Shown here piece by piece: positions 11,553 to 47,500 of a stretch of DNA of 64,000 nt. The notes below the pieces were generated by a model. The model saw only the letters and a program-made list of their open reading frames with translations. It had not been told where the DNA came from and searched no databases. This stretch comes from Flectonema sp. DT1601 (lineage: Eukaryota > Euglenozoa > Diplonemea > Diplonemida > Diplonemidae): positions 1-64,000 of the forward strand of contig OZ025840.1 in NCBI GenBank assembly GCA_964019425.1, in the 5' to 3' direction. A program made the translations under genes and the position numbers. Position 1 is the first letter of the stretch; each line of letters begins with the position of its first letter.

Positions 11553-12578
11553 CTATTTAATATAAGTTGCAGATCCAAAAACATTTTCAAACGGAATTAC
11601 GTTCCCAAAAGGGTTCACTGGGCCAGCAGAGTTGTGGTCGTTAAAAATTGCAAATACAACGATTCTGAATCTATTTACAAAGTGCTCAGATCTCAGAGCT
11701 CGTTCAAATAGTTCTGCAACTATATTGGGAGGATTACAGAAAGCGCCACACCCAAAGGCGCTCAGAACAATGCTATCATGGCCGTGATGCAGTGCGGTTG
11801 CTAAGATACCGCATATTTTGCGGAACATCCCTTCTTCATGGTCATTGTTCAAATAACGGAACCCCGGTGACGGTCCACAGGGTGGTTTCCTGTATGCCGC
11901 ACATGCAATAAATGACATTCTCTGCGGTGTCTCCAAATAAGGATAACCACACTGCTCTGTTCCCCTAAAAACTAACACATCAGGGGAGTAAATAGTGCCT
12001 TCATCAGACATGGGATACGAAAAGTCAAATCGGCGAAGAGCTGGGAGTGTCGATGAAATGTCTCTCGAGTCTTCTTGTAAAGAAGCCCAGTAGGCCGTTC
12101 GCCTGAAAATATTCTCTTCTTGAGCGCCCGATCCTTTTAGCCAACCTCCTCCAGGAATAACCTGATTAGCCATGTTTAGCACCACCGGATTGTAACCTTT
12201 ATCTTGAAGAGTAAGACCTGCAACAAGGCAATCGCCATCCCATACTTCTGTTATCGTCTCAATTTCGTGTGCCGGCGCTCCTGGCAATGTTGTTGGAGTA
12301 TCATAATAGGTAACTCGTTCCCTTGCCTTGATCATTTCATCCATAAAATTAAGACTGTGCTTTACTGTGTGTACTGCAACCTGAACCCTTAACATTCTGT
12401 GTTCGAAATACCCATCCGCATTTTTAAAATTCATTCTCCATTTATCTGCGTTCCAGTTTTCCTTTTGAGATAGCTCCCAACCTGTTTCAACTAATTTCCA
12501 CCGTTCATCCAAATCCAAAGAACTTTTCCCATCCTTCTTGTTCCGTTTCTTCTCATCTCCTTTCCCCTTTCTATTCAT
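11553..12578 (-). CDS. Bacterial/fungal-type poly(ADP-ribose) glycohydrolase (DUF2263/TIGR02452 family), copy 1
   Basis: 341 residues, single exon. The family removes ADP-ribose polymers from proteins. The signature is clear: GGG at residues 143-145 followed by QEE at 153-155 (PGGGWLKGSGAQEENIF), the glycine loop and catalytic glutamates of the PARG macrodomain. This is followed by the conserved YSPDVLVFRGTE segment and the HDSIVLSAFGCGAFCNPP segment that ends the macrodomain. The N-terminal 20 residues are Lys-rich, possibly a nuclear signal. An acceptor-like AACAG lies 6 nt before the ATG. It sits 98 bp downstream of a clear paralogue on the same strand, a tandem duplication. The substrate could be another ADP-ribose conjugate. 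Confidence 0.88.
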   Translation of the reverse strand: MNRKGKGDEKKRNKKDGKSSLDLDERWKLVETGWELSQKENWNADKWRMNFKNADGYFEHRMLRVQVAVHTVKHSLNFMDEMIKARERVTYYDTPTTLPGAPAHEIETITEVWDGDCLVAGLTLQDKGYNPVVLNMANQVIPGGGWLKGSGAQEENIFRRTAYWASLQEDSRDISSTLPALRRFDFSYPMSDEGTIYSPDVLVFRGTEQCGYPYLETPQRMSFIACAAYRKPPCGPSPGFRYLNNDHEEGMFRKICGILATALHHGHDSIVLSAFGCGAFCNPPNIVAELFERALRSEHFVNRFRIVVFAIFNDHNSAGPVNPFGNVIPFENVFGSATYIK

Positions 12579-12676
12579 ATAGACCTGTTGCTATGAAGTA
12601 ATTAAATCAAATAACAAAACTACAGCTTCAGGATGAGCGCTCAAATTATGCATTACTTTACTACTGAGTACTCCAT

Positions 12677-13690
12677 TCACTTAATATCAGGAAGGTGGTC
12701 CTCAATCTTTTTGGATTTACCGAACACTACTTCAAACGGCTTCACATTGCCGATAGGGTTTCGCTCCCCTCCACAATTTTCGTCATTGAATATTGCAAAA
12801 ACCACTTTCTTAAAACGGTTTGCTATGGCTGGGTGTAACAGGGCATCTTTGAAAATTTCAGCGACGATGTTTGGTGGATTTCCGAAAGCACCACAGCCCA
12901 GGGCGCTGAGAACAATGGAATCGTGACCGTGGTAAAGAGCTGTGTATAAAATGCCAAGTATTTTTTTATAAGTCCCTTTGTGTTCAGTGTCGCGCATTTT
13001 GAAGTCAGGTGGAGGTCCACAAGGTGGATCGCGATAAGCAGCAGCAGCTACAAAGGTAACTTTTCGTTGTGACGGCGGATACTTAACAAATGGATAGCCA
13101 GTAGCTTCCGTTCCTCTGAAAATGAGGACGTCGGGAGAATAAACAGTTCCAAAATCGTCCAGTGGATATTGCCACTTAAAGGCGTCGAATTCAGGTAGAG
13201 TTTCAGATACTTGATTGGGTTCCGAAATAAGAGACGCCCAATAAGATGTTCTTCGGAACATATTTTCTTCTTGGGCCCCATCACCATCTTCCCATCCTCC
13301 TCCAGGTCCATACTGATTCGCCATGTTCAGAAGTGCGGGATTGTAACCTTCGCCCTGAAGCAACTGCGCGGCCACAAGACAGTCTCCAGTCCAAACCTCT
13401 ATCAATGTTGTTTGCTTTTCTCCATCCCTTGACGGTAGAGTCAGTCCTGTTGGAGTGCTGTGGTACTCAACTCTGGATCTGCTGTCGAGTATCTCTTTCC
13501 TAAACATCATCTTCATACTTTGGTGAAGAGTTCCTACCGCAACCTGAACCCTCATCCTCCGTTTCTTGTCCCAAGCCCCCGTATTCATTATGCGTTCGCA
13601 CGCTTCACAGTCCCACTCGTCATAGTCCACGTGCGTAAGCCCAACGGAAACGTTCGTCCATTGGTTTGTCTTGCGCTTCTTTATCGACAT
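12677..13690 (-). CDS. Bacterial/fungal-type poly(ADP-ribose) glycohydrolase (DUF2263/TIGR02452 family), copy 2
   Basis: 337 residues from the ATG at 13690. The frame is open further upstream, but only with non-ATG codons, and an acceptor-like TTGAACAG lies 10 nt before this ATG. The diagnostic loop GGG (130-132) and catalytic QEE (140-142) are intact, as are YSPDVLIFRGTE and HDSIVLSALGCGAFGNPP. It aligns with copy 1 along its whole length and is the upstream gene of the tandem pair. The N-termini differ: this copy has a Cys/Trp/Asp-containing segment (residues 15-35) that copy 1 lacks. Both copies appear catalytically competent, which suggests divergence in targeting or substrate rather than decay. 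Confidence 0.88.
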   Translation of the reverse strand: MSIKKRKTNQWTNVSVGLTHVDYDEWDCEACERIMNTGAWDKKRRMRVQVAVGTLHQSMKMMFRKEILDSRSRVEYHSTPTGLTLPSRDGEKQTTLIEVWTGDCLVAAQLLQGEGYNPALLNMANQYGPGGGWEDGDGAQEENMFRRTSYWASLISEPNQVSETLPEFDAFKWQYPLDDFGTVYSPDVLIFRGTEATGYPFVKYPPSQRKVTFVAAAAYRDPPCGPPPDFKMRDTEHKGTYKKILGILYTALYHGHDSIVLSALGCGAFGNPPNIVAEIFKDALLHPAIANRFKKVVFAIFNDENCGGERNPIGNVKPFEVVFGKSKKIEDHLPDIK

Positions 13691-14235
13691 CTCTTGTGAG
13701 CTGTTCAAAGATATCAATCCAACAATTGAATCAAAACGTTCATCCGAACGCCAGAGTTTCCCTGCCTATCAAAGCATAGCCTCTGTAAGCAACGTCCCTC
13801 CAATTTCCTAAAACCTTTACCGAGAATCCATTCCTTGGAAATAACCTTTGAGAAATTATTTGAATAACTGAGAATTGAAGAACAATAAGATCAGTATACA
13901 TTTCGGGTCACATAAGGCTAGAACTGTGAGGTTATAATCGGTGGTATAGTAATGGATTGGGCATGGGAACACCGTACTGCAGGAGAACTGAAAATAAAAA
14001 ACTGTCACCACCCATCCATAGCAGGCGGAATGATGCTCAACTGATTCCTGTCAGTGTTGGTCATCTCATCAAGTTATTTTACCTGTAAGAAATAAGGGGT
14101 ATGAAAAATGTATCAACGATATCACCTTTCAGGATCTTCTCAGTCAGTTGTTAACCTTGAGTGGCTGAGCCCGAAGTTTTAATGAAGCGCGATGGTAGAA
14201 ACCATTTCACAGGTTCTCTTCGATGGGATAATATC
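13691..14235. other. Intergenic, nothing recognised
   Basis: 545 bp between the PARG paralogue and the coiled-coil gene. No coding frame, RNA or repeat recognised. Confidence 0.5.
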
Positions 14236-21258: not shown

Positions 21259-22968
21259 TTAGTACCCCATCGCGCACCCATCGGCTCTCGCATCAGAACC
21301 TGCGACTAAGACTCCATTATCTAACTTCACAATTATTTGTGCCCTTCCGAAGGCTGCCCTCTGCATACCATTCACTGGCTGCATATTGTGTCCCATTGCT
21401 TTTAATTTTTCAATTACTTCGCTGCTGAATTCCCCTTCGTAAGCGACCTGTCCAAATACACCCGAGTAAGAGTCATTCAGAATACAAAAGCGAGGCGCGT
21501 CGATCGATTGCTGCGGGTCCATTTCATGAAGTAACATATTCAGTAAATGCTGAACGTGTCCCTGAGGCTGCATGAATCCTCCCATATTCGTGAATGTTGA
21601 GTGAAGTGTACCATCATTGTTGGTAGTAATGCAGGGGATTATAGTGTGGTATGGGCGTTTGTTTGGGGCTAACGCATTCTTGTGTGAAGGATCAAGCGAA
21701 AAGTTATATCCCCTATTTTGAAGGGTAAACCCAGTCCCTTTTGGAACTATACCGGTACCAAAACCCATGTAATTAGAGTTTACCATACTCACAGCGTTAC
21801 CATGAACATCAACTACTTGGAATGAGACAGTGCAGCTGTCCTTCAAAGGTTGTCCATGTCTGCATTCCTCATCTGTCATTGCTCGTTCTTGAGATATGTT
21901 GTCACTTCTATTACTGGCGTACTTCTGCGACAACAACGATTCAATTAGATCTGCGTAGTTTTTCTGCTGCTCCTCTCCACCATACTCGGGATCTGTCACA
22001 AATTCTTTCGCATCAGCAAAAGCCAGACGAAGTGCCTCCAACTGGAGGTGCAACTGCGAGACGGAGCCAAATGGTTGCCTGTCTTCTTCATTTCTCTTTT
22101 TTAGTTCTTCCTTAATTATATTTAAAGCTATAAGGGCTGTAATACCTTGGCCATTTGGAGGATGTCCGTAGACCGTTTTCGATAAAAATTCTGTTGAAAT
22201 GGGATTTATAAAACTAGTAGTGTGACGATCCAAGTCATCTTGAGACATTACTGACCCGACTCCTTGAAGAGTGCTGGTGATGGCTTCAGCTACCCATCCC
22301 TTGTAGAATCCGTCTTTTCCACTTTTTACGATTTCACTTAATACGTTGAATACTTCTGGTCTTTTAAAGAGGCTACCCGTAGTCGGTGCCTTGCCAGCAG
22401 AGAGTATTTCTTCTCCGTTCGGTGCAGATTTCAGTGAACCTTCGCTTTCCTTCCAAGCAGCGCTGCAAACTGGAGCTACCGGAAATCCTTTTTTCGCGTA
22501 GCGCAAGGCAGACTCAAATATCTGCTCTCTACTGACGGAACCAGATCCGAACTTTTGTAAGCAATCTATCCACATCGCGACAACCCCTGGAACTGTTGCA
22601 GTGTGGGGATGGGAAGGTGGGAGGGAATCAAATCCTTCTTTTTTGTAACTTTCGACCACCTTTTCAATAGTTAGGTTGCCGGGGCATCTGCCGCTGCCGT
22701 TCACAGCACTGACTTTTTTGTCACTTGCAGAGTAATAAAGACAAAATCCATCCCCACCCAGTCCTGTTGAACAGGGTTCCACCACCGCAAGTGCTGCTCC
22801 AACTGCTATCGCCGCGTCCATCGCATTACCGCCTGACTTGAGTACCGACAGCCCAGCTTCTGTTGCCAGCGGGTTAGATGAAGCAACCATCCCCTCTGTT
22901 GCCATTACACAACTTCTAGATGAGCCACTCCCCTGCTGGAGTCGCTCATTACCATCCATCAAACGCAT
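21259..22968 (-). CDS. Gamma-glutamyltransferase/glutathione hydrolase-like enzyme (YwrD type)
   Basis: 569 residues from the ATG at 22968; the longer frame uses only a TTG. The family is an Ntn-hydrolase that splits gamma-glutamyl bonds of glutathione and related amides after autocleavage into two subunits. Visible hallmarks: N-terminal GMVASSNPLATEAG, SGGNAMDAAIAV and GLGGDGF; catalytic Thr at about residue 380 in KDSCTVSF, seven residues before the conserved Asp of VVDVHGNAVS; then GFGTGIVPKG and the ANKRP-like APNKRPYHTI, followed by GGFMQPQGH. The catalytic context is closer to the bacterial YwrD branch than to animal membrane GGT. No signal peptide or membrane segment follows this ATG. 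An acceptor-like TTTAAGAAG is 12 nt upstream. Confidence 0.9.
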   Translation of the reverse strand: MRLMDGNERLQQGSGSSRSCVMATEGMVASSNPLATEAGLSVLKSGGNAMDAAIAVGAALAVVEPCSTGLGGDGFCLYYSASDKKVSAVNGSGRCPGNLTIEKVVESYKKEGFDSLPPSHPHTATVPGVVAMWIDCLQKFGSGSVSREQIFESALRYAKKGFPVAPVCSAAWKESEGSLKSAPNGEEILSAGKAPTTGSLFKRPEVFNVLSEIVKSGKDGFYKGWVAEAITSTLQGVGSVMSQDDLDRHTTSFINPISTEFLSKTVYGHPPNGQGITALIALNIIKEELKKRNEEDRQPFGSVSQLHLQLEALRLAFADAKEFVTDPEYGGEEQQKNYADLIESLLSQKYASNRSDNISQERAMTDEECRHGQPLKDSCTVSFQVVDVHGNAVSMVNSNYMGFGTGIVPKGTGFTLQNRGYNFSLDPSHKNALAPNKRPYHTIIPCITTNNDGTLHSTFTNMGGFMQPQGHVQHLLNMLLHEMDPQQSIDAPRFCILNDSYSGVFGQVAYEGEFSSEVIEKLKAMGHNMQPVNGMQRAAFGRAQIIVKLDNGVLVAGSDARADGCAMGY

Positions 22969-23023
22969 TTTGTCAAATAACTTCTTAAAGAACAACTTTT
23001 ATAACAAATGTCTCTACAAGTAT

Positions 23024-23239
23024 TTATTTATTTATGTACAGTAGTGTATTTGAATAAGGAACTTCAGCCAATTTCCGATACGCCTTCAGATATTGTACCG
23101 CTGTGAGGAATAAAATAATAAATCCAAAGGACAGAAGACTAAATTGAATAAAATCTTCAAAACTGATGGGAGAGGATCGGGAAGATAGGGAGGGAGGTTG
23201 TGATGGCGGCCTCGTGGTGGGATCAGTTTTGCTCTGCAA
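23024..23239 (-). CDS. Possible small membrane-segment exon upstream of the GGT-like gene
   Basis: 71-codon open frame without an ATG, ending 56 nt before the GGT-like start. It encodes a Ser/Pro-rich head, then one strong hydrophobic segment (FSLLSFGFIILFLTAVQYL), then a basic turn. An acceptor-like GCGTTGCAG marks its start. It could be a spliced exon giving the GGT-like enzyme an N-terminal anchor, or chance. No donor in consensus form was found to join them. Confidence 0.2.
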   Translation of the reverse strand: MQSKTDPTTRPPSQPPSLSSRSSPISFEDFIQFSLLSFGFIILFLTAVQYLKAYRKLAEVPYSNTLLYINK

Positions 23240-24460
23240 CGCAGACTCGAATCACCCAACACACTGCTCAAAGAATATTCTTTACTACCAACGATTCTTC
23301 CCTAGCAGTCAGAAGGTTCTTCGCCTGTCTGGACTGCTATTGAAGATGATTCCGATTTCCTAACGTAAGAATACTTCGAACAGGTTACTACTATAGCACA
23401 CTGCTCAACATCTAAAATAAAACAAAAGAACGTGACAACAAAGATCGTCATTACTTTAATTGGTAATATCTGTACCTGGGACACAAAAAACAGGGAAAGA
23501 AAAAGAGAAAGTAGTCACGCGGAAACAGACCGGGTAACAATGACTTTATTGTCTTCCTTTATTTCATTCTGATGTTTTACTCTTTCTTAGTTGCTTTCTT
23601 ATATGAGACGTGCTCGTTAACCACGAACAGTTTTACGACATCTAATTAGATCTAAGCAGGCAGATTATTTCGTTGTCGGAAAGCAATCAAAGGAGCCACA
23701 ACTGACATGAGCAAAGAACAAGAATATGGAATCGGCTTTGGAGTCTGATATCGACTCACGTCACGTTGCTCGGAAACCAACTACCCCCAGCTCTCTCACT
23801 TCTCAATATAATATCTTCTTCTTCACTCCTCCAATCAAATGAGTTGTTGCGGAGCTGTGTGGACAGCATTCATTCTTTTGGACTCCAACGATGTTAAGAA
23901 GACCTTCAGAACATAACAAAAACGAAGGGGAAAGTGAATGGGAATACAGAAGATAAGTTTTTTTTTATTAATATCTTTCTATTGGAATTTCAACATAAAG
24001 CCGAAAGCTTCAGTGGTTAGGTTGATTCACTTTTGGATCAATAGTTTGCTCTAAGTTGTCTATCAGTTGTCTGACGCACGCGTTTCCAATAATTAGATCT
24101 CTTTCAGACACGGCTTACAAAAGTAATCCAAAAAGTGGATTAAATCCATTTTACTTATTTCTGTGAGTACAGAATGCTACCAAAATGCACAGCATTTATA
24201 AACACTGAACTCCTTAGTAATCACATTAGGGTTTGGTGTTACCAAAGATTATTCACAATACCTGGGAGGCCATTCACAAAGGGTTACCAAAGAGAGGTAT
24301 TTTAAAGTTAAAAAGTTAATTTGTTTATTTATTGGATTGCGATGTATGACATAACGAAAAAAACTGACATTTTGGGAGGTACGAATGTTCAGAACATGAC
24401 TGAATAAAATACGCTAATAAAGTGTTTAATATAATTATAACAGATCGTTAAAGAGATATT

Positions 24461-24502
24461 GATCTGTATGGCTACACGCAGGGAAGGTGTCGCATTGCAG
24501 AT
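24461..24502 (+). ncRNA. Covarying hairpin family, copy 1
   Basis: Outer stem ATCTG/CAGAT (plus a wobble), one or two bulged bases, then ATG/CAT and a terminal stem ACAC/GTGT over a loop starting GCAG. It is homologous to three further copies downstream; paired positions change together between copies. ACA occurs two bases after the stem. The strand is uncertain. Confidence 0.5.
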
Positions 24503-24688
24503 TGACAACTCTCTTCAATCGAAATTTGGAATAGTTTAAAATTCAAATTCTGAAATCAGTCTGAGTTCGATTGTTGTACTCAATGAACTCAATGAATAGA
24601 ATGGTACCTCACACAACTGTTACTCTGTAGCTATCTCAGGGGAGAACAAATGGAGTAATAGGCCACAGGGGTTCCATGTTGAGTTCTT

Positions 24689-24730
24689 GATCTGCATGGC
24701 CGCACGCAGAGAAGGTGCTGCATCGCAGAT
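24689..24730 (+). ncRNA. Covarying hairpin family, copy 2
   Basis: Outer stem ATCTGC/GCAGAT, a bulge, ATG/CAT, and terminal stem GCAC/GTGC over the loop GCAGAGAAG. Relative to copy 1 the terminal stem changes A-T to G-C on both sides, a compensatory change. ACA follows the stem after one base. Confidence 0.5.
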
Positions 24731-24832
24731 AACACAAGTTCAACTGGTAAATATACATTCAGCAGCCTAATTACACTCCACCCAAACAGTACTTTTTAGT
24801 AATACCACACAACGATATTGTTAATAGATCCT

Positions 24833-24874
24833 GATCTGAATGGTTACACGCAATGTAGGCGTCGCATCACAGAT
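24833..24874 (+). ncRNA. Covarying hairpin family, copy 3
   Basis: Outer ATCTG/CAGAT, ATG/CAT, and a terminal stem that re-pairs as ACGC/GCGT. The linear order and length match copies 1 and 2. Confidence 0.45.
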
Positions 24875-25045
24875 TCAAGTACAACATGCTCTCTGTGTGA
24901 GTCTCTCACACAGACATGGATATCAGTAGTAAGAAAAGACACCCTCAGAACATGTAATTACAATTAACGATGATTGCAAGTTATCAAAATATTAACTCTG
25001 AAAGGGAATTCAATTCTGTGGCGAAATATTTATAAACCTCGTTGT

Positions 25046-25083
25046 GATCCGCATGAACACGCGGTAGGCGTTTCATAGCAGAT
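25046..25083 (+). ncRNA. Covarying hairpin family, copy 4
   Basis: Shorter copy: outer ATCCGC/GCAGAT with one C-A mismatch (a G-U pair if read on the minus strand), ATG/CAT, and terminal ACGC/GCGT over a 5-nt loop. ACA lies directly after the stem. Confidence 0.45.
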
Positions 25084-25682
25084 ACAAACCCCAAGGTACT
25101 ATCCATCAGAACACTGATAATAAAAACAAACAGAAATACTCTATTCAGATAAAAGGTTAATGTTTTTTTTTTTTTTTTCAGACAACAGAAAGGCAACGTG
25201 GGCTGTGATTTCTGAGATGAGTTTCCTTCACAAAAAAAGTAATATATTTAAGTTGAGATAGCCGTGAGGCTAAAAGGAGGCTGAGGCTGATTTTGGAGTC
25301 TAAAACTTATTTTTGTAGAAGTGATTTCTGAATATATAATTCAAAGGTACTTCACGACTGCCTTCGGTACTTTAATAGTTGGTAATAAAAATGTTAAAAT
25401 GGAACAACACAAACACAACAACACCTTTCACGCGTTTTTTTAAATTTGGGGGCGATTTCACGCAGTTAGCATGAAGCGTTCTAACTGACAGTTGAGAATG
25501 TTAGTGAGAAAGTTGTTGTTGAGTACTGAAAGGCTGATTGGGAGCAGACAAACTACAAGAATGCTTCCACAGATATCATAACATAATTAGAATTCATTTT
25601 ATAACATTTCAAGATATATTTGAGTTGTAAGTCGACGATAAAGTGACTAAACAAATACACACTTTGTGCTCACGAAGAATGG

Positions 25683-25886
25683 GGAGAAACAGCAGGTCGC
25701 AACAGCGGTGAAATTGTTCACGCGACACATCCGCTGGTGCGACCACCGCTGAGGATAGGGTGGCGTATTTGTTAATAAAAGTATCAACGCCAAAGCGTCT
25801 CTCCGGTGAGAGGCTGGGAAGGAAAGGGAGAAACAGCAGCTGGCTGCAAACAGCGGGTACCCGCTGGTGCGACTACTGCCGAGCAG
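25683..25886. repeat. Duplicated stem-rich segment
   Basis: Two related segments (25683-25758 and 25827-25886) share GGAGAAACAGCAG near the start and CCGCTGGTGCGAC near the end. Copy 1 folds into GGTCGC (25695-25700) and CAGCGG (25703-25708) paired with CCGCTG (25731-25736) and GCGACC (25739-25744), separated by a 2x2 internal loop. Copy 2 holds the perfect palindrome CAGCGGGTACCCGCTG (25851-25866). Confidence 0.55.
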
Positions 25887-27328
25887 GACTCCCTTGTTAT
25901 TCCATTCCAGCAACATATCGCCTTCTTATCTTCATGTTTATACTATTCGCAATAACAAGAAATGGACTCCGAGCCAACAACAGATTTTAAATTCTTAACC
26001 AAAGAAAGAATGAAACTTATTTTTTGTTTCACCGAATTGGGTTGAGGAAGTGTGTGGCAGTCTGCGACACTCGTCGCGAAATACTTTTTTCTGAAGAAAA
26101 CAGAAATAAAAAAATAAAAAGTAGTTAAAAAGTATCCAAGGAATCGATAAGACCACATGAGGTCATCTATGGTGAATTAAGAGTGCGAGGAGGAGATAAG
26201 GAGAAAGATTAGTTTAGCTCACATCAGCATCTGTTTTCAGAAGAACGAAAGAGTTTACGAAACACCGCCGTATCAAACACTAAAGCAAAGGAACTTAAAG
26301 CCATGCTAAGGGATAATCTCACGGCGGGTTATGTTAATCAATCGGTACGCACATTCACGAGAGATTATAATACTCAATCAACTTCAATAAGAAACTATAA
26401 ATACAACGATGCACTACTTTTATTGTATTCAACCAGCAGTCGAAAGGACTCACTGAGAATTACTGTTCAAATAATATCCCGTCTAAGAAAGAAAGAGACT
26501 TCAGTCATCTTGTGAGAGTGAAGTCGATCTTTTTCTTAAACTGTCAGAATAATAATACGACCAATCACATGAATTGTTTGATAAATATCACACGAAGGCA
26601 AGCTCTCTATTCACAGGCTGCTGTGAAAAAAAAAAGCAGGAGAAGAAAATTTCAGAATTAAAGTCTTATGGACTGCAGTATAGTAGCAAAGATGTGTTAA
26701 AATGGACTTCCAGCGTCAACATCATATCAGATTGACTGCCATCCGACTCTACGCCAAACTAGTTATTAAAAACTAAAAATAAAATATTTAAAAAACAAAA
26801 CAAAAAAACGTTCGCCATATCAACAAAACAAAAAAAAATAATAATAAAAAAACAGGGAAGCCGTTGTTGTCCAACAAAATAATTAGAAAGAACACAATAC
26901 TTTCTGTGAGCATTGTTGTCTTTCTTAGAATCAACAACACCTTTTCCACATTACGTCAATAGTACATGTTCTCCGTATGACTACCTTTATTAGGATTTGG
27001 AAGTTAGTTTAATATTATCCAACAAGAACAATAGTAAAGTAGCAACAGATGTAGCAGCTTGTTGCTACGGCGTTTGTGTTAGAACGGGGGAAAATGTGGA
27101 ATATGAAAAAATAGAAAAAAAAGAAAATGTCTGCCTAGTTCGTCGTGGAGGTGAACGCAAGACAGAATATTACTTTGAAGTACTTTTAATAAAAGTAATA
27201 GAAAAGGGCAGGGAAAAAGTTATTTTTCGTGTGGAAAAACAGTTGGAGTGGAGGACTGGATACCAAACATTGGAATTGCATTGAAACTAACCAAAAAGAA
27301 GAATCAATAATTTGGATCTATGTGTGTC

Positions 27329-27356
27329 TCACCATACCCTTCGTGGGTGATGGTGA
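27329..27356. ncRNA. Strong isolated hairpin
   Basis: TCACCAT+ACCC (27329-27339) pairs with GGGT+ATGGTGA (27345-27356): 11 base pairs, one bulged G and a TTCGT loop, in otherwise A/T-run sequence. It could be a transcript-end or RNA-processing structure. No gene is assigned. Confidence 0.3.
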
Positions 27357-29536
27357 AGCATCTTCCGAAAACAAAAAAAAAAATTAAAAAAAAAAAAAAA
27401 TTATAGAATAACATACTTGTGAAAAAAATTAATTTTTTCCGTCAAATTAAAATCAAAAAAATGGCTTCGCCACCGGGAATGAGAAAAATTGACATAAATT
27501 ACCCCCAAAAAGGATGTTTTCTACTACATTAGAATCTCCGTCGTACGACGGTATCCAAATGAGAACACATTTATTTAATTTACGACTCATTAAACGGAGA
27601 GAAATATCGAAACAATTATTAGTAAACTTCACCACTTTAGACAGCCACTTGATCGATACTTGAGCGTCGTAGGAAGTCAACCAAATAAATTAAAAAAATA
27701 AATAAAAAATTAATTTTGTTCACAAGTATGAAATAATAATTAGATTATATCTCACGAGAATAAGACTTTATAACATCTTCCACAAGTCGAACAACTGGTT
27801 TGAGGACCGAAATTTATTTTTTCAAAGTCAGGTGTCACCCTGCGATGTAGCCAGATCGTTACATTGGGCTGACAGCTCCAAAAACAAAACAGAGAGGCGC
27901 TGCGCTAGAAATCAATAATAGCCACCTACTCCGATTTTCAAATGACACTTCGAAAAGTCCTCCTGGCAGCTTTCGTTGTAGAAAAAAAATAGATTCTGCC
28001 CAACTCACAGTGGATGGGCAAACCAATGTAGTGGCCGTGGGGAAGGATATAACATTTTCCTTAAATTGTGATGATGAAATACATCTTATGATTGCCACTA
28101 AACGATGTCATTTCACACGAGGAGGGAAAGGGTGGGGAGGGACAAAACGAAAAGCTACACCCTCAGAAAGGACTTGTGGCTTTAAGTTAAGTGGGAGGTA
28201 GTCGCGTCGGTTTTATTCAACAGAAATGTCGAATTGTATTTAACTACTACAACAAACGTTTTGGTTTCAGAGAGAATTCAATTACGCCTCTCATTTGGGT
28301 TTCTGAAAGTAAACAACAGCGACATCAACAAGGGAAATGAGAAAGTTAATGCGCGGAGTGCTAACACAAATCCCGCACACGCGATTCCCATCCAAACCTG
28401 ATCACCATTTCTGTGGAATCTTTCAAAAAAGATTCAACGAGCTCAGGGGAGGACTACATCAACACGCGAGGAATCTCATTTCCCAATCACCTGATGCCCT
28501 GCGGAAAGGGAACACACAACAACCACACAGAATCTTCGGCTATTTATTGCTCCTAAGCGAGGTTTGCACTTAGCTACTTGACCCGCGTCTGTTTGTTGTG
28601 CAGCAAGAAAAGGAATATAAAATAAGGGGACATACGAGAGGATCACTCCATCAGAAAACAGAGAAACAAACTGAAGCTAATTAGTCGGGTGATTTACCAA
28701 CTACAACATCCTGAAAGGGGGAGGAGGGTTTGGAGAGCAGAGCCACTCTGAACTGCTGTCGGCACAAACGGTTATTATTATTATTATTTTGTTTCTCCGA
28801 CAGCAAACAATTAAATAAAAGAATTATTACACAGGCTCAGTTGTGATGTTTATGTTGTCAGACCTTAAGTAGCTGAAGTCATTCACCTCTCCTAACAATT
28901 ACTTAACACTTAACAAAAAGGAATTTCAGGGGACACAATGTCCGCATCCCAATTATGAGTTTTGCTGTCTCAAGCGCCGTACTCCACAAGAGATGCACAT
29001 CAACCAACACAAATTGAATATAATAACCTACAAGTACACTGCAAGCACACATTACTTAAAGGCGCTTATTGAAACAGACCAGAAGTTGGAACAGTTTACG
29101 AATACAAATAAAAAGGAAAATGGGAACCTTGAATGTCGTCTAATATAAAGAAAATGGAACAAACTCAGCCAAGACACACTTGTCTCGAATTAAATAAAAC
29201 ATAATGAAAAAAAAAAAAAAAAAAAAGAAAATAAAAACATCTTTAAAAAGGAGAGTGCAATAGGCGCTCACTGTTGAGGTGACGCAGCGAGCACCTGGTA
29301 AAAACCATCATTGATGTACATTGTAGTGGACGCTGATCTCAAAGTGAAAGCCAATCTGACTTCAAACTGAAATATTTACAAAATATAAAACCATCGACCG
29401 GTTAATGATCATACGAATGTTAAACAATGGGTTCACCAATTAAAGGTGATTGGTCCCGTACAACTAATAACCCTCTTCCTGACTAGCTAGACGACTATCA
29501 CCAGATATATTCATTCGGATCGCTACGTCAGTACTC

Positions 29537-30697
29537 TTAACGATCTCCGACGAATACAGCAGCAGCGTGGTTTAGTCTTCTTCTGTCTAATGGAGACTCG
29601 AGGTAAAATAGAGACTTTGCTCCTTTCCTGTTTTCGTTTGATAGTTTGATGCTACGATAAGTTATTTTAAAACTCAACAAAAAAAAAAAAAAAGAAAAAA
29701 AAACATACCCACAGCTAACAACACTCCCAATTTCAAGAAGAACACCCCAAGGAGCAACAAACAACATTCTTTCCCAAACCATTGGAAGCATTACGTAAAG
29801 TGTCCATAAGAACGTTGATCCAGCAATGATAAGTGGAGTGAACGCAGATATGACCCAGGCCACGGCTTCATAGCAGCGGGAAATAATAGATGCGTTAGTG
29901 TTGGTAGAGCTGGGACGCTCAACTCCAACACATTTACACCACGTTGATATAATTATCGCTGGTGCAGCAGCTGCAATTAGTGGAACGACTGTGACCAGAC
30001 CATAAGCAACTGCAGCAGCTGACAGTTCTTGAAGAAAGTTTCTGTACAACATGCAGCAAACTTCACCCATCAAAAGCCAAAAGACAAATCCACCAAAGTG
30101 ATTGACTTCATCGAGTTTCTTTGGGGAACTCTCTGATAGCGTACGAAGTCTGCCGGCAATAATCCCGTGAAAGCAAATCGCCAGAAGTCGAAGTACTTGC
30201 TGGTCTTTCATTGCTTTATAAGAATAACATCCTCCGACAATACCAGTTCCGAATGATAGAACTGGATAAAGGAAACTAATCGAGTGAATATTTAACGTCT
30301 CACGTGTTGCTGCCAACAAAACGCAACCAATCGGGAGAAGGTAAAGAAGGAATTGAAGTCCACCTAATTCATCGATAATATCATTCATTCTCATAGTCCA
30401 TAAAAAGTAAAATGGAGCAAAGCAGGTTACAGTGAGGAAGAATCTACCAATGCGAACTTTCGCGTCTTCGACAACAACTTCCTTCTTTCGGCGTACGCGT
30501 TTTGCTTTCTTAACTCTTTTCTTGCGTAGTATTGGTGCCTGGCTGTCGCTGTTCACTTCAAGAGAACAACTCGAACTTCCAGGAGACGATGGTGGGGTAA
30601 CAGATCTCTCGTCGTCTCTGCTTCTGCTCGGCCCCGCTGAGATTGATCGCGAGCGATGAGCAGCCACCTGCTCAGTTCTGAATCCACTTTGATCCAT
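29537..30697 (-). CDS. Polytopic membrane protein, unknown, two exons
   Basis: Exons 30697-29709 and 29627-29537 give 359 residues. The 81-nt intron (GTATGT...AAACAG) is a multiple of three and free of stops, so the unspliced frame would add 27 mostly Phe/Leu residues. The splice signals and T-tract make an intron far more likely. The N-terminus (about 1-85) is Ser/Arg-rich with a strongly basic stretch (KKRVKKAKRVRRKK), cytosolic in type. It is followed by about eight hydrophobic segments between residues 88 and 330 and a short basic tail. No family is recognised. An acceptor-like TAATCAG is 29 nt before the ATG. Confidence 0.75.
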   Translation of the reverse strand: MDQSGFRTEQVAAHRSRSISAGPSRSRDDERSVTPPSSPGSSSCSLEVNSDSQAPILRKKRVKKAKRVRRKKEVVVEDAKVRIGRFFLTVTCFAPFYFLWTMRMNDIIDELGGLQFLLYLLPIGCVLLAATRETLNIHSISFLYPVLSFGTGIVGGCYSYKAMKDQQVLRLLAICFHGIIAGRLRTLSESSPKKLDEVNHFGGFVFWLLMGEVCCMLYRNFLQELSAAAVAYGLVTVVPLIAAAAPAIIISTWCKCVGVERPSSTNTNASIISRCYEAVAWVISAFTPLIIAGSTFLWTLYVMLPMVWERMLFVAPWGVLLEIGSVVSCGYVFFSFFFFLLSFKITYRSIKLSNENRKGAKSLFYLESPLDRRRLNHAAAVFVGDR

Positions 30698-39298: not shown

Positions 39299-40327
39299 TA
39301 TTGTATTGTGATCTGTGTGAGGTGTTGTTTGTTAGGAAGAAGAAGGAACCGTAGACATGACAACAAACCAACTCAATCAACTTCTCATATTATTCTTCGC
39401 CCTGCTGAATACGAGAATGAGATAACTCAGATTGCTACCTGTCATCACAATACACAATTGCATTTGGGGAACATGAAGAAGGGAGGGATAACACCAGGTA
39501 TCGAACCGCTCTGAAGAATTTAGGGATGGGAGAGAAGAGTTTCTTTTGTAGTTTTCCCCATTTTCTTATTTCTTTGTTGTTTTTTTATTTATTTATTTTC
39601 TTGTAAAATTCAAAAGTTTCCTGTTTTTTTTTTTTTTTTTTTGTTTTTTTTTTAAGCAAACGGAAGCGAACTTCGCTATGAATTCCCCCTTCTTTTTTTT
39701 TATTAAAAGTTTTTTTTTTTTTCAATGTAAACACTTTAGTAGTATTTTTATAAGTTTCTTCGTTAGATATTCCGTGTTGAAATCATTTTTCTCATTGTAG
39801 ATTAGACAGCTGTTGGGCTGATAAAAATCGCAATTAGACTGTACAACGCTCGACTACGAAGCCAAGAAAGAATGGGGAATGGGGGTTACAACATTACAAG
39901 GGATCGGATATAGGGGTTTAAGTTGTTATTTTTTTTCCTCTTTTTTTCAATAATTTTTTTTTTTTTTTCAGAAACAAAAGAGAGTCACCTCCATGAGCAC
40001 TACACTATTCGAGGAAGGGACTGGGGAACGCACGAAGCGAGTTACCAACAAAACGTCGCTGAGTTATCGGATGAGTCACGTCAGACCTTTTGTAAAGTGG
40101 TTTTAATAAACGAAGAAAACTAAATGGAGGGAAAATAACAAAAAAAAAAAAAAAAAAAGGGAGGGAGTGATTTCAAATGGAGGTGGGGGAGAAACAATGA
40201 GAATAACAAAATCGCAAATTTTTTTCGTTCTTTTTTTTTTCTCTCTAAGAACATTTCCAACTACTCTAGACATCTGAAGCAATAGCGAGAATACAAACTG
40301 TTTGTTGATGTTGTCTGAAAACACAAA

Positions 40328-40365
40328 GAGGTGAGACGCAAAGAGAGAATGAACTCTCACACCTC
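40328..40365. ncRNA. Paired hairpin family, copy A
   Basis: GAGGTG/CACCTC outer stem and GAGAG/CTCTC inner stem. It shares GGTGRGACGCAAAGARAG and ACTYTCACACCT with copy B. The inner stem differs by a compensatory change. It overlaps the stop of the small ORF at 40366. Confidence 0.4.
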
Positions 40366-40557: not shown

Positions 40558-40673
40558 GTTTATGGAAATTATTTGTTTTGTACTAAAATGACAGAAAAGT
40601 TACAAAGAAAAGTCAACATCTACGTCAAGTAGGTTTAATTATGAAATATGCGAAGGTGATTCTAACCCAAGGC

Positions 40674-40707
40674 GGTGGGACGCAAAGAAAGTATTAACTT
40701 TCACACC
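40674..40707. ncRNA. Paired hairpin family, copy B
   Basis: GGTG/CACC outer and GAAAG/CTTTC inner stem with a 6-nt loop. Homologous to copy A over about 34 nt. G-C to A-T replacement on both sides of the inner stem supports a conserved fold. Confidence 0.4.
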
Positions 40708-41571
40708 TCAAAGGGAACAAGCACTCAACGCATTACTTCACTTGAAGAAATCAGAAAACTTACATAAGAGTCAATGCCTAAAACTAAAGACTGACGAGGG
40801 GAATGCTTCACAAAAACTGTTAAACAAAATAAGATGCTCACGACTTTGGCTGATCAGCCCGCCGTTTGCAGATCGTAACTAATGAAATTGTGTGCAGAGG
40901 AGAGTGAGAAGGGAGCGAGCAAACTGCTCTAATCGCAAAGACAACTTCGATAGGAATGCAGTCTGTCAGAATTCTAATTAATTTGGAAATAAAAACTGCA
41001 AACAGAGAGCATATCCACGATGATGAAAATTATTAATAACTTCCTCCGAAGGTGAACTACAGCCACACCTAACAGAAGACTCATTTCACTCAACAGAGTA
41101 CGTCGACTAACTTAATAACAACTCGTGACGGCAGGAACTTAACCAACAACTCCAAAAGGGAGAACCCGAACCAGAAAACTAGTTCTCGGAATCCTCGGTG
41201 CTCGTTCGTAACACTTAAAAACTCGTACGGTAACATTTAGGGGAAAAGAAAACAAAACAAAAAAAATGTATCCAAAAAAAAAAAAAAAAAAAAAAAAAAA
41301 TACCCGAAAAAACACTTTTACATAAAAAGAAAACAGAATTAAGACAAAGTGGAATAGGAAGGGAGAACAACACTACAAGGTACTGCTGTGACTGCGAAAT
41401 ATATTTTCGCAGTTGAAGAAGTTACTCTTCGCAGTATTCGTGCGGAGAAAAAATAAAACGAATAACTGAAGAATACGAAATAACACCTTAAAGATACTCC
41501 TCTCATTTGGGTATCTCCCTCAAGGAGAGCCATTCTGTGCCTACTAATATCCGATTGCAAAGGGAGGAAGT

Positions 41572-44500
41572 CTACATCCTCGAGCTTTTATAGGCATCAG
41601 CTCCGTAACTTGGGTAGTTGCTTTGGTTGCTTGTTCTGGTTTTAGTTTAGTTTAGTTATTTTATTATATTATACAGAAGTCATTTCAGAAGAACTACTGT
41701 TCCTTAAAGTAAAGAGCTTCATGAGAACAATACATACTTGAAGTGATCTGCTCCTGCACTGGATACTGTCCTGGCAGTGCGTTGCGTAGAGGCGGCAGGC
41801 TTACTGTATGCGTCGCGCTGTTTTGTTTCCTGTGTTTCTTGAACAGACATCTAGAAAGCTAGCAGCTTTATTTATTTCTTAAAAATTACTAATGTCAAAC
41901 TTTTACAAAAATAAATAACAAAATAATCATACCGAAGGGATGCCATAATCTCTCTGTTTACTCGTCAAAAAGTGATCAGCGTCAGCGATAGATCTCTGAA
42001 CTGATTGTCTGCGAGTACTCCGAGCGATTGACGCAGGAGCGCTTGGAGGTGCCGGGAAGTTTTTCTGATTGGTACTCTTGAAGTGGTCAGGGTCAGAGTG
42101 AGCCATTCTATGGCGTTGACTGCTGCGCTGAACAGACCCACGAGAGTAGCTGTCTGGAGAAGGAGCTCTGTAGTTCTTCTGGTTAGTACTTTTAAAGTGA
42201 TCAGAATCCGCCCTCGTGAGCCCTCTACGAACAGAAGACGCGGTAGATCTCGCAGGGGATGCACCGAGATAGGCATCTCTGGTTGGCGCTTGGAAGGACT
42301 GCTTTGATGAGGTTAAGAAATGGTCTTTTGAAGCTCTTCTAACCGACACATTTGGACTCGAATTAACAGGCGGTTTGCCGTAGTTGGATCTCGCTGGCGA
42401 CTTGTAGTTCTGTTGATTCATCGACTTAAAATGATCAGCATCAACTTGATTCGAAGTACGCCTGCTGAAACCTGCAGTAGAACCAGCGGCATGTTGTCTT
42501 TTGTAGGAATCCGCATCTGGTGCTGCGTAATCTCTCTGCTTCGATGTTTTGAAATGGTCAGGGTCAGCTTTAGTTACCTGTTTCTGTTTTTGTGAGAATG
42601 ATCCTCTTCTTGGAGTATAGTTCTCATGTCCTGGTACTTTGTAGTCTGCCTGACTTGAAGTCTTGAAGTGGTCAGGGTCGGCCTTCGACAATTGACGCTG
42701 GACTGATTCACCTTTTGCGGTCTTTTGGTACGCAGATGAATCAGGTGCCGCGTAGTCCTTCTGTTTCGATGTTTTGAAGTGGTCCGCGCCTGCTGATGTC
42801 AGATTTCTGTCTGCAATTGGGGCCTTTTCCTTTTTAGCATATGCGTCACTACCTGGAGCTGGGTAATCTTTCTGCTTGCTAGTTTTGAAGTGATCAGCAT
42901 CTGCGTGAGTAACATGACGTGGCACGCTGGCGCTTTCTACTCGTCTCGGGCTGTAGACATCCTGACCGTAATCCGGGTAGTCAGCCTGCGCAGAAGATTT
43001 AAAGTGATCCGGGTGAGCCTTTGACAACTCTCTCTGTACGGATGCGCTTCCATGAGGGCGCGCATAGGCTGAGGCATCAGGTGCAGCGTAATCCTTCTGT
43101 TTTGAAGACTTAAAGTGATCAGGGTCAGCATGAGTAAGTTCTCTCTGTGGACTAGAGTTGACCTCTCTCGATGCATACGCATCAGCGTCGGGTGCCGCAA
43201 AGTCTTTTTGTTTACTCGTTTTAAAGTGATCAGGGTCAGCGCTTGTTAAACCACGACGGACACTGTCAGTTGCTGCTGGCTTTTGATATGCTGACGCATC
43301 AGGAGCAGCGTAATCTTTCTGCTTACTACTCACATAATGGTCAGGGTCAGCTTTCGTTAGGTTCCTACTCGGACTTTCATGTGCTGCCTGTCTGGCGTAG
43401 TTGGAGGCATCAGGAGCAGCGAAGTCCTTCTGCTTGCTGGTCAAAAAGTGATCAGGGTCAGCAGCAGTGAGTTCCCGTGGAGGGCTTGACATACCTTCAC
43501 GCCTCGCGTAGGCAGAGGCATCAGGAGCTCCGTAATCTTTTTGCTTGCTGGTCTTGAAATGATCTGGGTCAGCTCCAGTTAGCTCACGACGAACACTTTC
43601 AGTCATCACAGGCTTTTGGTAAGCAGACGCATCTGGTGCACCGTAGTCTTTCTGCTTGCTGGTGGTGAAGTGGTCAGCATCAGCCTTAGTCAGTTCCCTT
43701 TGCGGGCTCTCAACTTCCCCATGTCTGGCGTAGTTGGAGGCATCAGGAGCAGCAAAGTCTTTCTGCTTGCTGGTGAGGAAGTGATCAGGGTCAGCAGCAG
43801 TCAATTCCCGTGGAGGGCTTGACATACCCTCACGCCTCGCGTAGGCAGAGGCATCAGGAGCTCCGTAATCTTGTTGCTTGCTGGTCTTGAAATGAACAGG
43901 GTCAGCTCCAGTTAGCTCACGACGAACACTTTCAGTCATCACAGGCTTTTGGTAAGCTGAAGAGTCAGGGGCCGCGTAATCCTTCATCTTACTGGTGGTG
44001 AAGTGGTCAGGATCAGCCTTAGTCAGTCCTCTCTGTGGGCTTTCAAACTCACCGTGTCTGGCGTAGTTGGAGGCATCAGGAGCAGCAAAGTCTTTCTGCT
44101 TACTGGTCAAGAAGTGATCAGGGTCAGCAGCAGTCAATTCCCGTGGAGGGCTTGACATACCTTCACGCCTCGCGTAGGCAGAGGCATCAGGAGCTCCATA
44201 ATCTTGTTGCTTGCTGGTCTTGAAATGATCTGGGTCAGCTCCAGTTAGCTCACGACGAACACTTTCAGTCATCACAGGCTTTTGGTAGGCAGACGCATCT
44301 GGTGCACCGTAGTCTTTCATCTTACTGGTGGTGAAGTGGTCAGCGTCAGCCTTAGTCAGTTCTCTCTGTGGGCTTTCAAACTCACCGTGTCTGGCGTAGT
44401 TGGAGGCATCAGGGGCTGCGTAATCCTTCTGCTTACTGGTCAAAAAGTGATCAGGATCAGCAGCAGTCAATTCCCGTGGAGGGCTTGACATACCTTCACG

Positions 44501-47500
44501 CCTCGCGTAGGCAGAAGCATCAGGAGCTCCGTAATCTTGTTGCTTGCTGGTCTTGAAATGATCTGGGTCAGCTCCAGTTAGCTCACGACGAACACTTTCA
44601 GTCATCACAGGCTTTTGGTAGGCAGACGCATCTGGTGCACCGTAGTCTTTCATCTTACTGGTGGTGAAGTGGTCAGCGTCAGCCTTAGTCAGTTCTCTCT
44701 GTGGGCTTTCAAACTCACCGTGTCTGGCGTAGTTGGAGGCATCAGGAGCAGCGTAATCCTTCTGCTTACTGGTCAAAAAGTGATCAGGATCAGCAGCAGT
44801 CAATTCCCGTGGAGGGCTTGACATACCTTCACGCCTCGCGTAGGCAGAGGCATCAGGAGCTCCGTAATCTTGCTGCTTGCTGGTCTTGAAATGATCTGGG
44901 TCAGCTCCAGTTAGCTCACGACGAACACTTTCAGTCATCACAGGCTTTTGGTAGGCAGACGCATCTGGTGCACCATAGTCTTTCATCTTGCTAGTGGTGA
45001 AGTGGTCAGCGTCAGCCTTAGTCAGTTCTCTCTGTGGGCTTTCAAACTCACCGTGTCTGGCGTAGTTGGAGGCATCAGGAGCAGCGTAATCCTTCTGCTT
45101 ACTGGTCAAGAAGTGATCAGGGTCAGCAGCAGTGAGTTCCCGCGGAGGGCTTGACATACCTTCACGCCTCGCGTAGGCAGAGGCATCAGGAGCTCCGTAA
45201 TCTTGTTGCTTGCTGGTCTTGAAATGATCAGGGTCAGCAGCTGTTAGTTCCCTTTGCGGACTTGCAGCATTCTCATGTCTGCTGTACGCAGAGGCATCTG
45301 GTGCACCGTAATCCTTCATCTTACTGGTGGTGAAGTGGTCAGCGTCAGCCTTAGTCAGTTCTCTCTGTGGGCTTTCAAACTCGCCGTGTCTGGCGTAGTT
45401 GGAAGCATCAGGAGCTGCGTAATCCTTCTGCTTACTGGTCAAAAAGTGATCAGGATCAGCAGCAGTCAATTCCCGTGGAGGGCTTGACATACCCTCACGC
45501 CTCGCGTAGGCAGAGGCATCAGGAGCTCCGTAATCTTGTTGCTTGCTGGTCTTGAAATGATCTGGGTCAGCAGCTGTTAGTTCCCTTTGCGGACTTGCAG
45601 CATTCTCATGTCTGCTGTACGCAGAGGCATCTGGTGCACCGTAATCCTTCATCTTACTAGTGGTGAAGTGGTCAGCGTCAGCCTTAGTCAGTTCTCTCTG
45701 TGGGCTTTCAAACTCACCGTGTCTGGCGTAGTTGGAGGCATCAGGAGCTGCGTAATCCTTCTGCTTACTGGTTAAAAAGTGGTCAGGGTCAGCAGCAGTG
45801 AGTTCCCGTGGAGGGCTTGACATACCCTCACGCCTCGCGTAGGCAGAGGCATCAGGAGCTCCGTAATCTTGTTGCTTGCTGGTCTTGAAATGATCAGGGT
45901 CAGCTCCAGTTAGCTCACGACGAACACTTTCAGTCATCACAGGCTTTTGGTAAGCTGAAGAGTCAGGGGCCGCGTAATCCTTCATCTTACTGGTGGTGAA
46001 GTGGTCAGGATCAGCCTTAGTCAGTTCCCTCTGTGGGCTTTCATACTCACCGTGTCTGGCGTAGTTGGAGGCATCAGGAGCTGCGTAATCCTTCTGCTTA
46101 CTGGTCAAAAAGTGATCAGGATCAGCAGCAGTGAGTTCCCTCTGAGGACTCGCCATTCCTTCAGGTCTAGCGTAAGCGGAAGCATCAGGAGCAGCGTAGT
46201 CTTGCTGTTTGCTGGTCATGAAGTGGTTTGGGTCCGCTGTGGTTAGTTCCCTCTGTGGGCTGGCAACACTCTCTCCTCTCTTGTAGGCTGAAGCGTCAGG
46301 GGCCGCGTAATCCTTCATCTTACTGGTGGTGAAGTGGTCAGCGTCAGCCTTAGTCAGCTCTCTCTGTGGGCTTTCAAACTCACCGTGTCTGGCGTAGTTG
46401 GAGGCATCAGGAGCAGCGTAATCCTTCTGCTTACTGGTCAAGAAGTGATCAGGGTCAGCAGCAGTGAGTTCCCGCGGAGGGCTTGACATACCTTCACGCC
46501 TCGCGTAGGCAGAGGCATCAGGAGCTCCGTAATCTTGTTGCTTGCTGGTCTTGAAATGATCTGGGTCAGCAGCTGTTAGTTCCCTTTGCGGACTTGCAGC
46601 ATTCTCATGTCTGTTGTACGCAGAGGCATCTGGTGCACCGTAATCCTTCATCTTACTGGTAGTAAAGTGGTCAGGATCAGCCTTTGTTAATTCTCTCTGT
46701 GGGCTTTCAAACTCACCATGTCTGGCGTAGTTGGAAGCATCAGGAGCTGCGTAATCTTTCTGCTTGCTTGTCAAAAAGTGATCAGGATCAGCAGCAGTGA
46801 GTTCCCTCTGAGGACTCGCCATACCTTCAGGTCTAGCGTAAGCAGAAGCATCAGGAGCAGCGTAGTCTTGTTGCTTGCTGGTCATGAAGTGGTTTGGGTC
46901 CGCTGTGGTTAGTTCCCTCTGTGGGCTGGCAACACTCTCTCCTCTCTTGTAGGCTGAAGCGTCAGGGGCCGCGTAATCCTTCATCTTACTGGTGGTGAAG
47001 TGGTCAGGATCAGCCTTAGTCAGTTCTCTCTGTGGGCTTTCATACTCACCATGTCTGGCGTAGTTGGAGGCATCAGGAGCAGCGTAATCCTTCTGCTTAC
47101 TGGTCAAAAAGTGATCAGGATCAGCAGCAGTCAATTCCCGTGGAGGGCTTGACATACCTTCACGCCTCGCGTAGGCAGAGGCATCAGGAGCTCCGTAATC
47201 TTGTTGCTTGCTGGTCTTGAAATGATCAGGGTCAGCAGCTGTTAGTTCCCTTTGCGGACTTGCAGCATTCTCATGTCTGCTGTACGCAGAGGCATCTGGT
47301 GCACCGTAATCCTTCATCTTACTGGTGGTGAAGTGGTCAGGATCAGCCTTTGTTAATTCTCTCTGTGGGCTTTCATACTCACCATGTCTGGCGTAGTTGG
47401 AGGCATCAGGAGCTGCGTAATCTTTCTGCTTGCTTGTCAAAAAGTGATCAGGATCAGCAGCAGTGAGTTCCCTCTGAGGACTCGCCATTCCTTCAGGTCT

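Follow-up and report, generated by a model that had tools for sequence, protein, structure and literature searches.

Four hairpin-forming elements in a gene-poor gap of a probable diplonemid contig: possible minus-strand RNA hairpins, with a decaying local repeat as close rival

The window analyzed here is a stretch of 64,000 nucleotides at one end of contig C61 (745,534 b), which belongs to a genome of 89.5 Mb in 92 contigs. Window positions 1-2634 (2.6 kb) are occupied by a terminal array of the repeat GCGGGTTT (TTTGCGGG), which is almost devoid of A and looks like a telomere with an unusual repeat unit; literature searches on telomere repeats listed no paper of use for this array. We examined the gene direction and the local repeats over 258 of the 745 kb of C61. 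Within its first 257,924 b, 77 of the 78 non-overlapping ORFs of at least 200 aa reside on the minus strand; this count includes one ORF formed by the terminal repeat, and the sole plus-strand ORF is subtelomeric. A directional gene layout like that on C61 has been described for Diplonema (PMC10161547). One minus-strand ORF of 3718 aa (41927-53083) consists of repeats around DPDHFxTSKQKDY with a DNA period of 111-114, and two adjacent, similar-looking minus-strand ORFs are located at 11553-13717. This ORF pair presumably resembles the TIGR02452 (PARG-like) family.

The four elements of interest are located in a region which the first-pass annotation had described as gene-poor, and no ORF of at least 150 aa was indeed found between 22,995 and 29,537. 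The gap and its borders are as follows.

21259-22995, minus strand: gamma-glutamyltransferase gene bordering the gap
22996..29536 (6.5 kb), no strand assigned: gap in the ORF list without ORFs of at least 150 aa, holding the four-element cluster
29537-30697, minus strand: ORF without a Pfam match bordering the gap

None of the ten ORFs in the gap matched Pfam at the curated cut-off, and ARAGORN found no tRNA genes in the window. Bacterial-type promoters and terminators showed no excess over shuffles, and a plasmid search with one gene of the window gave no match. The gap contains coding-like stretches, as several 93-nt windows were flagged by a hexamer score trained on this contig; the score reaches about 18-19 at 25656-25748 (plus) and 24019-24111 (minus), compared with a median of 19.5 for true coding sequence.

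The Cdc20 protein encoded in the window shows 65, 62, and 61% identity to records prefixed Rhum, Sspe, and RCo, respectively, which we take to denote the diplonemids Rhynchopus humris and Sulcionema specki and the euglenid Rhabdomonas costata. Further relatives are unnamed transcriptome records (60-66%), and the first-ranked record is labelled moth (41%). These matches agree with the euglenozoan origin guessed in the first-pass annotation. The rDNA array, which we located by pattern and of which we annotated one stretch, resides on contig C92 with a unit of about 6.9 kb. Its LSU rRNA gene aligns end to end with the Rfam model (3,460 b versus 3,401 model positions), leaving little room for extra spacers. 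The 28S rRNA of D. papillatum is reported to be unsplit, unlike that of kinetoplastids and euglenids (PMC10161547). Judging from the Cdc20 relatives and the apparently unsplit LSU, the host is probably a diplonemid. The SSU in the same rDNA reads GTGCCAGCACCCGCGG, in which a common universal primer site is altered.

The four copies of a motif of about 43 nt reported in the first-pass annotation are real, each beginning one base to the left of the position given there.

24460..24502, minus strand (putative): hairpin copy 1, with an AUCUG/CAGAU outer stem and an ACAC/GUGU inner stem in the minus reading
24688..24730, minus strand (putative): hairpin copy 2, with the inner stem GCAC/GUGC, an in-register double change relative to copy 1
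24832..24874, minus strand (putative): hairpin copy 3, folding less well than the other three (z -0.7 on each strand)
25045..25083, minus strand (putative): hairpin copy 4, the most diverged, 4 nt shorter, with pairing largely kept
24447..24509, no strand assigned: copy 1 with weakly shared flanks, GTT at 24447-24449 on the left and ACAA at 24505-24508 on the right

The copies have TGATCYGnATG, CACGC (aligned in three copies and shifted in copy 4), CAT, and CAGAT in common. The cores of copies 1-3 are about 80% identical; copy 1 matches copy 2 with 82% identity over 50 nt (E 3.8e-8) and copy 3 with 79% over 53 nt (E 4.7e-7). On the sequence level, the similarity of the elements is confirmed to lie far above chance. 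The similarity is confined to the elements. Among the ten pairs formed by the three spacers and the two outer flanks, nine show no similarity beyond 200 shuffles (p at least 0.19), and the pair of outer flanks is the only one near to standing out (p 0.025, 200 shuffles). Close to the cores, GTT occurs within 14 nt to the left and AAC within 14 nt to the right in all four copies. No quartet out of 3000 random ones shared any 3-mer and its complement in this manner (1/3000 with 16-nt flanks), a count to be read with the motif having been noticed before testing. An outer stem extending beyond the 43-nt core was considered and rejected, as including the flanks gave no better z-scores (-3.3, -1.4, +0.6, and -0.9 for copies 1-4), even though GTT, ACAA, and AAC recur.

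The start-to-start distances of 228, 144, and 213 are all multiples of three, which would suit coding exons present in several copies or the remains of a protein repeat. In line with such an origin, copies 1-3 read ICNATPSLRVAIQI, ICDAAPSLRAAMQI, and ICDATPTLRVTIQI in one frame of the minus strand, and 93-nt windows across copy 2 score 13.9 (plus) and 13.2 (minus) for in-frame hexamers, above the intergenic 99th percentile of 10.4. However, stop codons interrupt that minus frame between the copies, and copy 4 breaks it. The hexamer scores of the copies themselves do not exceed 2.8, except for copy 2 on the plus strand (11.2), and the absence of Pfam matches among the ten gap ORFs also speaks against a coding repeat, which we consider highly improbable.

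A covariance model search, which the first-pass annotation had proposed as a check, retrieved exactly the four elements from the window at 57-69 bits, followed by the next match at 14.3 bits. With default filters, the model found nothing in a further 203 kb comprising the rest of the examined part of C61 and the rDNA stretch. Genome-wide, we searched by pattern and by DNA query, so that the counts are lower bounds and a much diverged copy could escape; additional copies, as sought by the first-pass annotation, did not turn up in these searches. A 35-place pattern with up to three mismatches found only copies 1-3 in the whole genome, a 28-place pattern found all four copies and nothing further, and a pattern made from copy 4 found only copy 4. 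DNA queries of 71 and 91 bases gave only self-matches in the whole genome. A query with 6.3 kb of the gap gave 68 matches, of which those outside the gap avoid the elements and mostly involve A/T-rich parts of the query. A loose genome search for the two ends had 12 matches, namely copies 1-3 and nine with unrelated interiors, compared with 19 for the reversed control. The exact degenerate pattern was absent from viral contigs and matched twice in bacterial contigs, which we attribute to chance, because 257 Gb were searched. Rfam gave no match in the window at the gathering score; below it (E up to 5), three matches are located in the gap and none over the elements.

Most of the copies can still adopt a common hairpin. 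Including flanks, the z-scores of copies 1-4 are -3.4, -1.9, -1.0, and -3.2 on the plus strand and -1.9, -1.3, -1.65, and -3.3 on the minus strand. The bare cores have a mean z of -2.1 on either strand; among 20,000 quartets drawn at random from 389 windows of the same gap, 0.1% (plus) and 0.2% (minus) did as well.

The first-pass annotation had also proposed compensatory changes in the terminal stem, and this claim holds in part. The change from ACAC/GTGT to GCAC/GTGC is an in-register double change, but copies 3 and 4 form ACGC/GCGT only when the 5' arm is shifted by 2 nt; kept in register with the alignment, the stem of copy 3 contains an A.C mismatch. The RNAalifold structure of the plus strand pairs 44 of 48 cells, with three pairs showing one double change each; nine of 500 shuffles attain at least this covariation score, and 46 have at least three pairs with double changes. 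On the minus strand, the 11 pairs of the two helices contain standard pairs in 43 of 44 cells (41/44 for the same pairs on the plus strand), again with three pairs showing one double change each, and both the pairing and the double changes are reached by 24 of 500 shuffles. These double changes are single cells among four sequences and affect individual base pairs of copies 2 and 4. Copies 1, 2, and 4 seem to have retained their pairing, unlike copy 3, with modest support that depends on the assumed ancestor.

The hairpins fold about equally well on the plus and minus strands. Three cells are G-U on the minus strand (A.C on the plus strand) versus one the other way, four cells in all. Together with the strand of the genes, the G-U cells give a slight lean toward the minus strand as the active one, which is antisense to the hairpin originally drawn. 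The equal folding of both strands would also be expected if the elements were dyad-symmetric DNA sites, i.e., interrupted palindromes bound by a dimeric protein, for example in chromatin, replication, or transcription. The facing arrangement of the half-sites ATCTGnATG and ATCTGnnATG would fit such sites, as would the failure to find a second array in the genome at the search sensitivity applied. However, the mirrored change from A-T to G-C between copies 1 and 2 is expected for pairing and less so for a fixed recognition sequence, and the spacing of the half-sites differs by one base. We regard DNA sites as unlikely.

We compared the folds of the real copies with those of random mutants of the majority consensus carrying equal transitions, transversions, and deletions. 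The fractions of mutants folding as well as copies 1-4 were 0.021, 0.0045, 0.35, and 0.022 on the plus strand and 0.31, 0.004, 0.33, and 0.002 on the minus strand (n = 2000). The majority consensus contains a three-way tie at position 8, which had been broken alphabetically, and we repeated the test with each letter at this position. With C, as found in two of the four copies, the fractions for copies 1-4 became 0.07, 0.043, 0.52, and 0.064 (plus) and 0.81, 0.033, 0.57, and 0.02 (minus; n = 1500); with T, they were 1.3, 1.0, 42, and 4.3% (plus) and 29, 0.3, 37, and 0.9% (minus). Starting from single copies on the plus strand, the fractions were 0.013 for copy 1 to 2, 0.0085 for both 3 to 1 and 3 to 2, 0.46 for 1 to 3, and 0.50 for 2 to 3; the change from copy 2 to 1 gave 0.066 on the plus strand and 62% on the minus strand. 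Thus, the changes leading into copy 2 keep the structure above chance, but those leading into copy 3 do not. Under an assumed ancestor and with four copies that are not independent, these tests suggest that structure has been kept in copies 2 and 4 and possibly in copy 1, but not in copy 3. In the minus-strand mutant test, copy 1 gives no indication that its structure was retained. Because the test becomes clearly weaker when a single tied position is changed, we lowered our estimates for a family of RNA hairpins and for a new RNA class, and raised that for a decaying repeat.

A decaying local repeat is indeed a close rival. According to this explanation, a stretch of 45-60 bp was copied four times locally and has been drifting without function, the hairpin being a chance property of the founder. 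Short local duplication is common on C61, which supports this rival: among the 43 gaps of at least 600 b between minus-strand ORFs of 150 aa within the 258 kb examined, 20 contain self-similar stretches (E 1e-3), including the gap with the four elements. The other C61 gaps with local repeats make local duplication by itself ordinary here. Most of the stretches are A/T-rich, yet five of nine other gaps sampled hold stretches of mixed rather than low-complexity sequence. The stretches tested at 215, 219, and 225 kb have no structure; in each of the other two mixed-sequence gaps (40 and 174 kb), a good fold is seen in one copy out of two. Copy 3 resembles a random mutant, as does copy 1 on the minus strand, and copies 1, 2, and 4 test weaker with another consensus. 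Against mere decay, copies 2 and 4 fold better than most mutants under all three versions of the consensus (fractions 0.002-0.064), although the extent of this departure depends on consensus and strand. At individual base pairs of copies 2 and 4, the two arms have changed in concert, and the four copies have near-identical boundaries. A functionless, drifting repeat is accordingly a real possibility in our estimate.

We made several observations on the repeats of other stretches of the contig. A 46-nt element occurs twice at 40320-40365 and 40664-40709 with 83% identity, where GAGAG/CTCTC has changed to GAAAG/CTTTC and the first copy alone folds well. Outside the window, C61 174049-174085 and 174786-174821 are inverted copies of a 37-nt stretch, the first of which forms a strong GCCCTCC hairpin (z -4.4 for the first and -1.7 for the second on the plus strand). 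C61 225488-225557 and 225900-225972, also outside the window, are two copies with 78% identity, both carrying GTGATGA on the minus strand. This heptamer presumably resembles a C box, and neither copy showed a complementarity of 10 perfect pairs to rRNA on the minus strand. In the gap of the four elements itself, 25674-25760 and 25818-25893 share GGGAGAAACAGCAG on the left and CCGCTGGTGCGAC on the right, forming long nested stems around a diverged loop with z about -1.9 to -3.6; the gap-wide search found no other match to this pair in the genome.

The first-pass annotation had suggested that the elements could be single-hairpin H/ACA guides of pseudouridylation, with ACA directly after the stem in three copies. 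Strictly, this holds for one copy and only loosely for three, as ACA follows CAGAT after 2, 3, 6, and 0 nt; ACAA occurs within 6 nt after the stem in all four copies on the plus strand. In the trypanosomatid model, stem I has 5-8 bp, in most cases without a mismatch, and is usually followed by the box after 1-3 nt, the target uridine lies 13-16 nt before the box, stem II starts with 3-7 perfect base pairs, and stem I was searched for 49-83 nt upstream of the box (PMC2613932). Copies 1 and 2 come closest to this model: stem I has 5 bp, stem II has 4 bp, the loop measures 7+7 nt, and ACA lies 14 and 15 nt after stem II, respectively. Stem I has 5 bp in copies 1-3 on the plus strand, but copy 4 has a C.A mismatch. 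The distances between stem I and ACA (43, 44, 47, and 37 nt) all fall short of the published search range (PMC2613932). The box follows stem I after 2, 3, 6, and 0 nt and stem II after 14, 15, 18, and 12 nt, so that two of the four copies fit and copies 3 and 4 do not. Moreover, the loops are conserved and partly self-complementary.

Pocket complementarity to rRNA, another check proposed in the first-pass annotation, provided no convincing guide signal on either strand when tested against the rRNA of the annotated rDNA stretch. On the plus strand, no rRNA uridine pairs (3+3 or better) with the pockets of at least three copies and one pairs with two, whereas column-shuffled pockets had a three-copy site in 108 of 200 cases. 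The minus-strand pockets have one three-copy rRNA site, and comparable sites appeared in 85 of 200 shuffles. As for single pocket sets, eight of nine were unremarkable, being reached by 5-51 of 60 shuffles. The pocket of copy 3 on the minus strand pairs with 4+7 nt at LSU 1548, which one of 60 shuffled sets also reached; although this counts in favor of a guide, it is not remarkable among nine tests. Plain antisense complementarity to rRNA extends to 11 nt at most (minus copy 2 with SSU), a length reached by one of ten shuffles. The drawn plus-strand hairpins are also antisense to the array with 77 of its 78 long ORFs on the minus strand, at variance with processing from a polycistron on the gene strand. 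The H/ACA reading fails because the hairpins are too short, the box spacing fits in two of four copies, and no rRNA site is shared by at least three plus-strand pockets. Pseudouridine guides on the plus strand are thus very improbable.

What stands of the small structured RNA cluster proposed by the first-pass annotation is a set of hairpin-forming elements with mostly kept pairing, which is modestly supported, but not the guide role. Our tentative preference is a small family of structured RNA hairpins on the minus strand, locally duplicated within a polycistron. The four elements would be paralogous copies of a short RNA hairpin derived from an old local duplication, each with a 5-bp outer stem, a 4x4 internal loop, an inner stem of 2 bp + 4 bp, and an apical loop. 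They would be carried on the minus strand within a polycistronic transcript, minus-strand transcription being presumed here from the gene direction. From this transcript, either four small RNAs may be cut out, or one long non-coding or untranslated stretch may contain the elements as four modules to which proteins bind. In both cases, we infer that the elements act as RNA and that their conserved loops are recognized by a protein. The presence of a second hairpin family in the same gap also counts in favor of this reading.

A bolder version of the RNA-hairpin family, which we hold to be rather unlikely, is that the elements represent an undescribed diplonemid class of small RNAs with protein-binding loops, to which the second family of two hairpin copies in the same gap (25674-25760 and 25818-25893) would be added, making the gap a new small-RNA locus. 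Diplonemids have been described as abundant and species-rich marine eukaryotes (PMC10161547). The D. papillatum genome paper lists genes for rRNA, tRNA, snRNA, and SL RNA, and the word "snoRNA" does not occur in its main text (PMC10161547). Among the literature found, judged by the title and the start of the abstract, none dealt with small nucleolar RNAs of diplonemids.

If the preferred RNA-hairpin family is true, a duplicated, pairing-conserved RNA family in a polycistron would provide a handle on other small RNAs of diplonemids. If the elements are merely a drifting repeat, they would serve as a warning that short local duplications in this genome can mimic RNA families. We consider the A-repeat of Xist, presumably made of short conserved hairpin cores with unrelated spacers between them, as an analogue; the A-repeat is part of a long RNA, whereas the present elements are known from the DNA sequence, and no homology is claimed.

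With the H/ACA-like guides of trypanosomatids and Euglena (PMC2613932), the elements share a single hairpin with two stems and loops, a nearby ACA, a clustered arrangement, and a euglenozoan host. They differ from these guides by their shorter length, the inconsistent spacing of the box, the antisense orientation as drawn, the lack of a shared rRNA target, and the conserved loops. The repeat-bounded genes of D. papillatum, as described in PMC10161547, offer another comparison. Parts of UTRs or coding sequences are repeated in tandem there (PMC10161547), whereas a 43-nt hairpin core recurs here between unrelated spacers, with roughly 1.5 kb separating the elements from the nearest ORF of at least 150 aa. 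Both genomes have in common degenerate short repeats near genes that are arranged in long directional clusters (PMC10161547).
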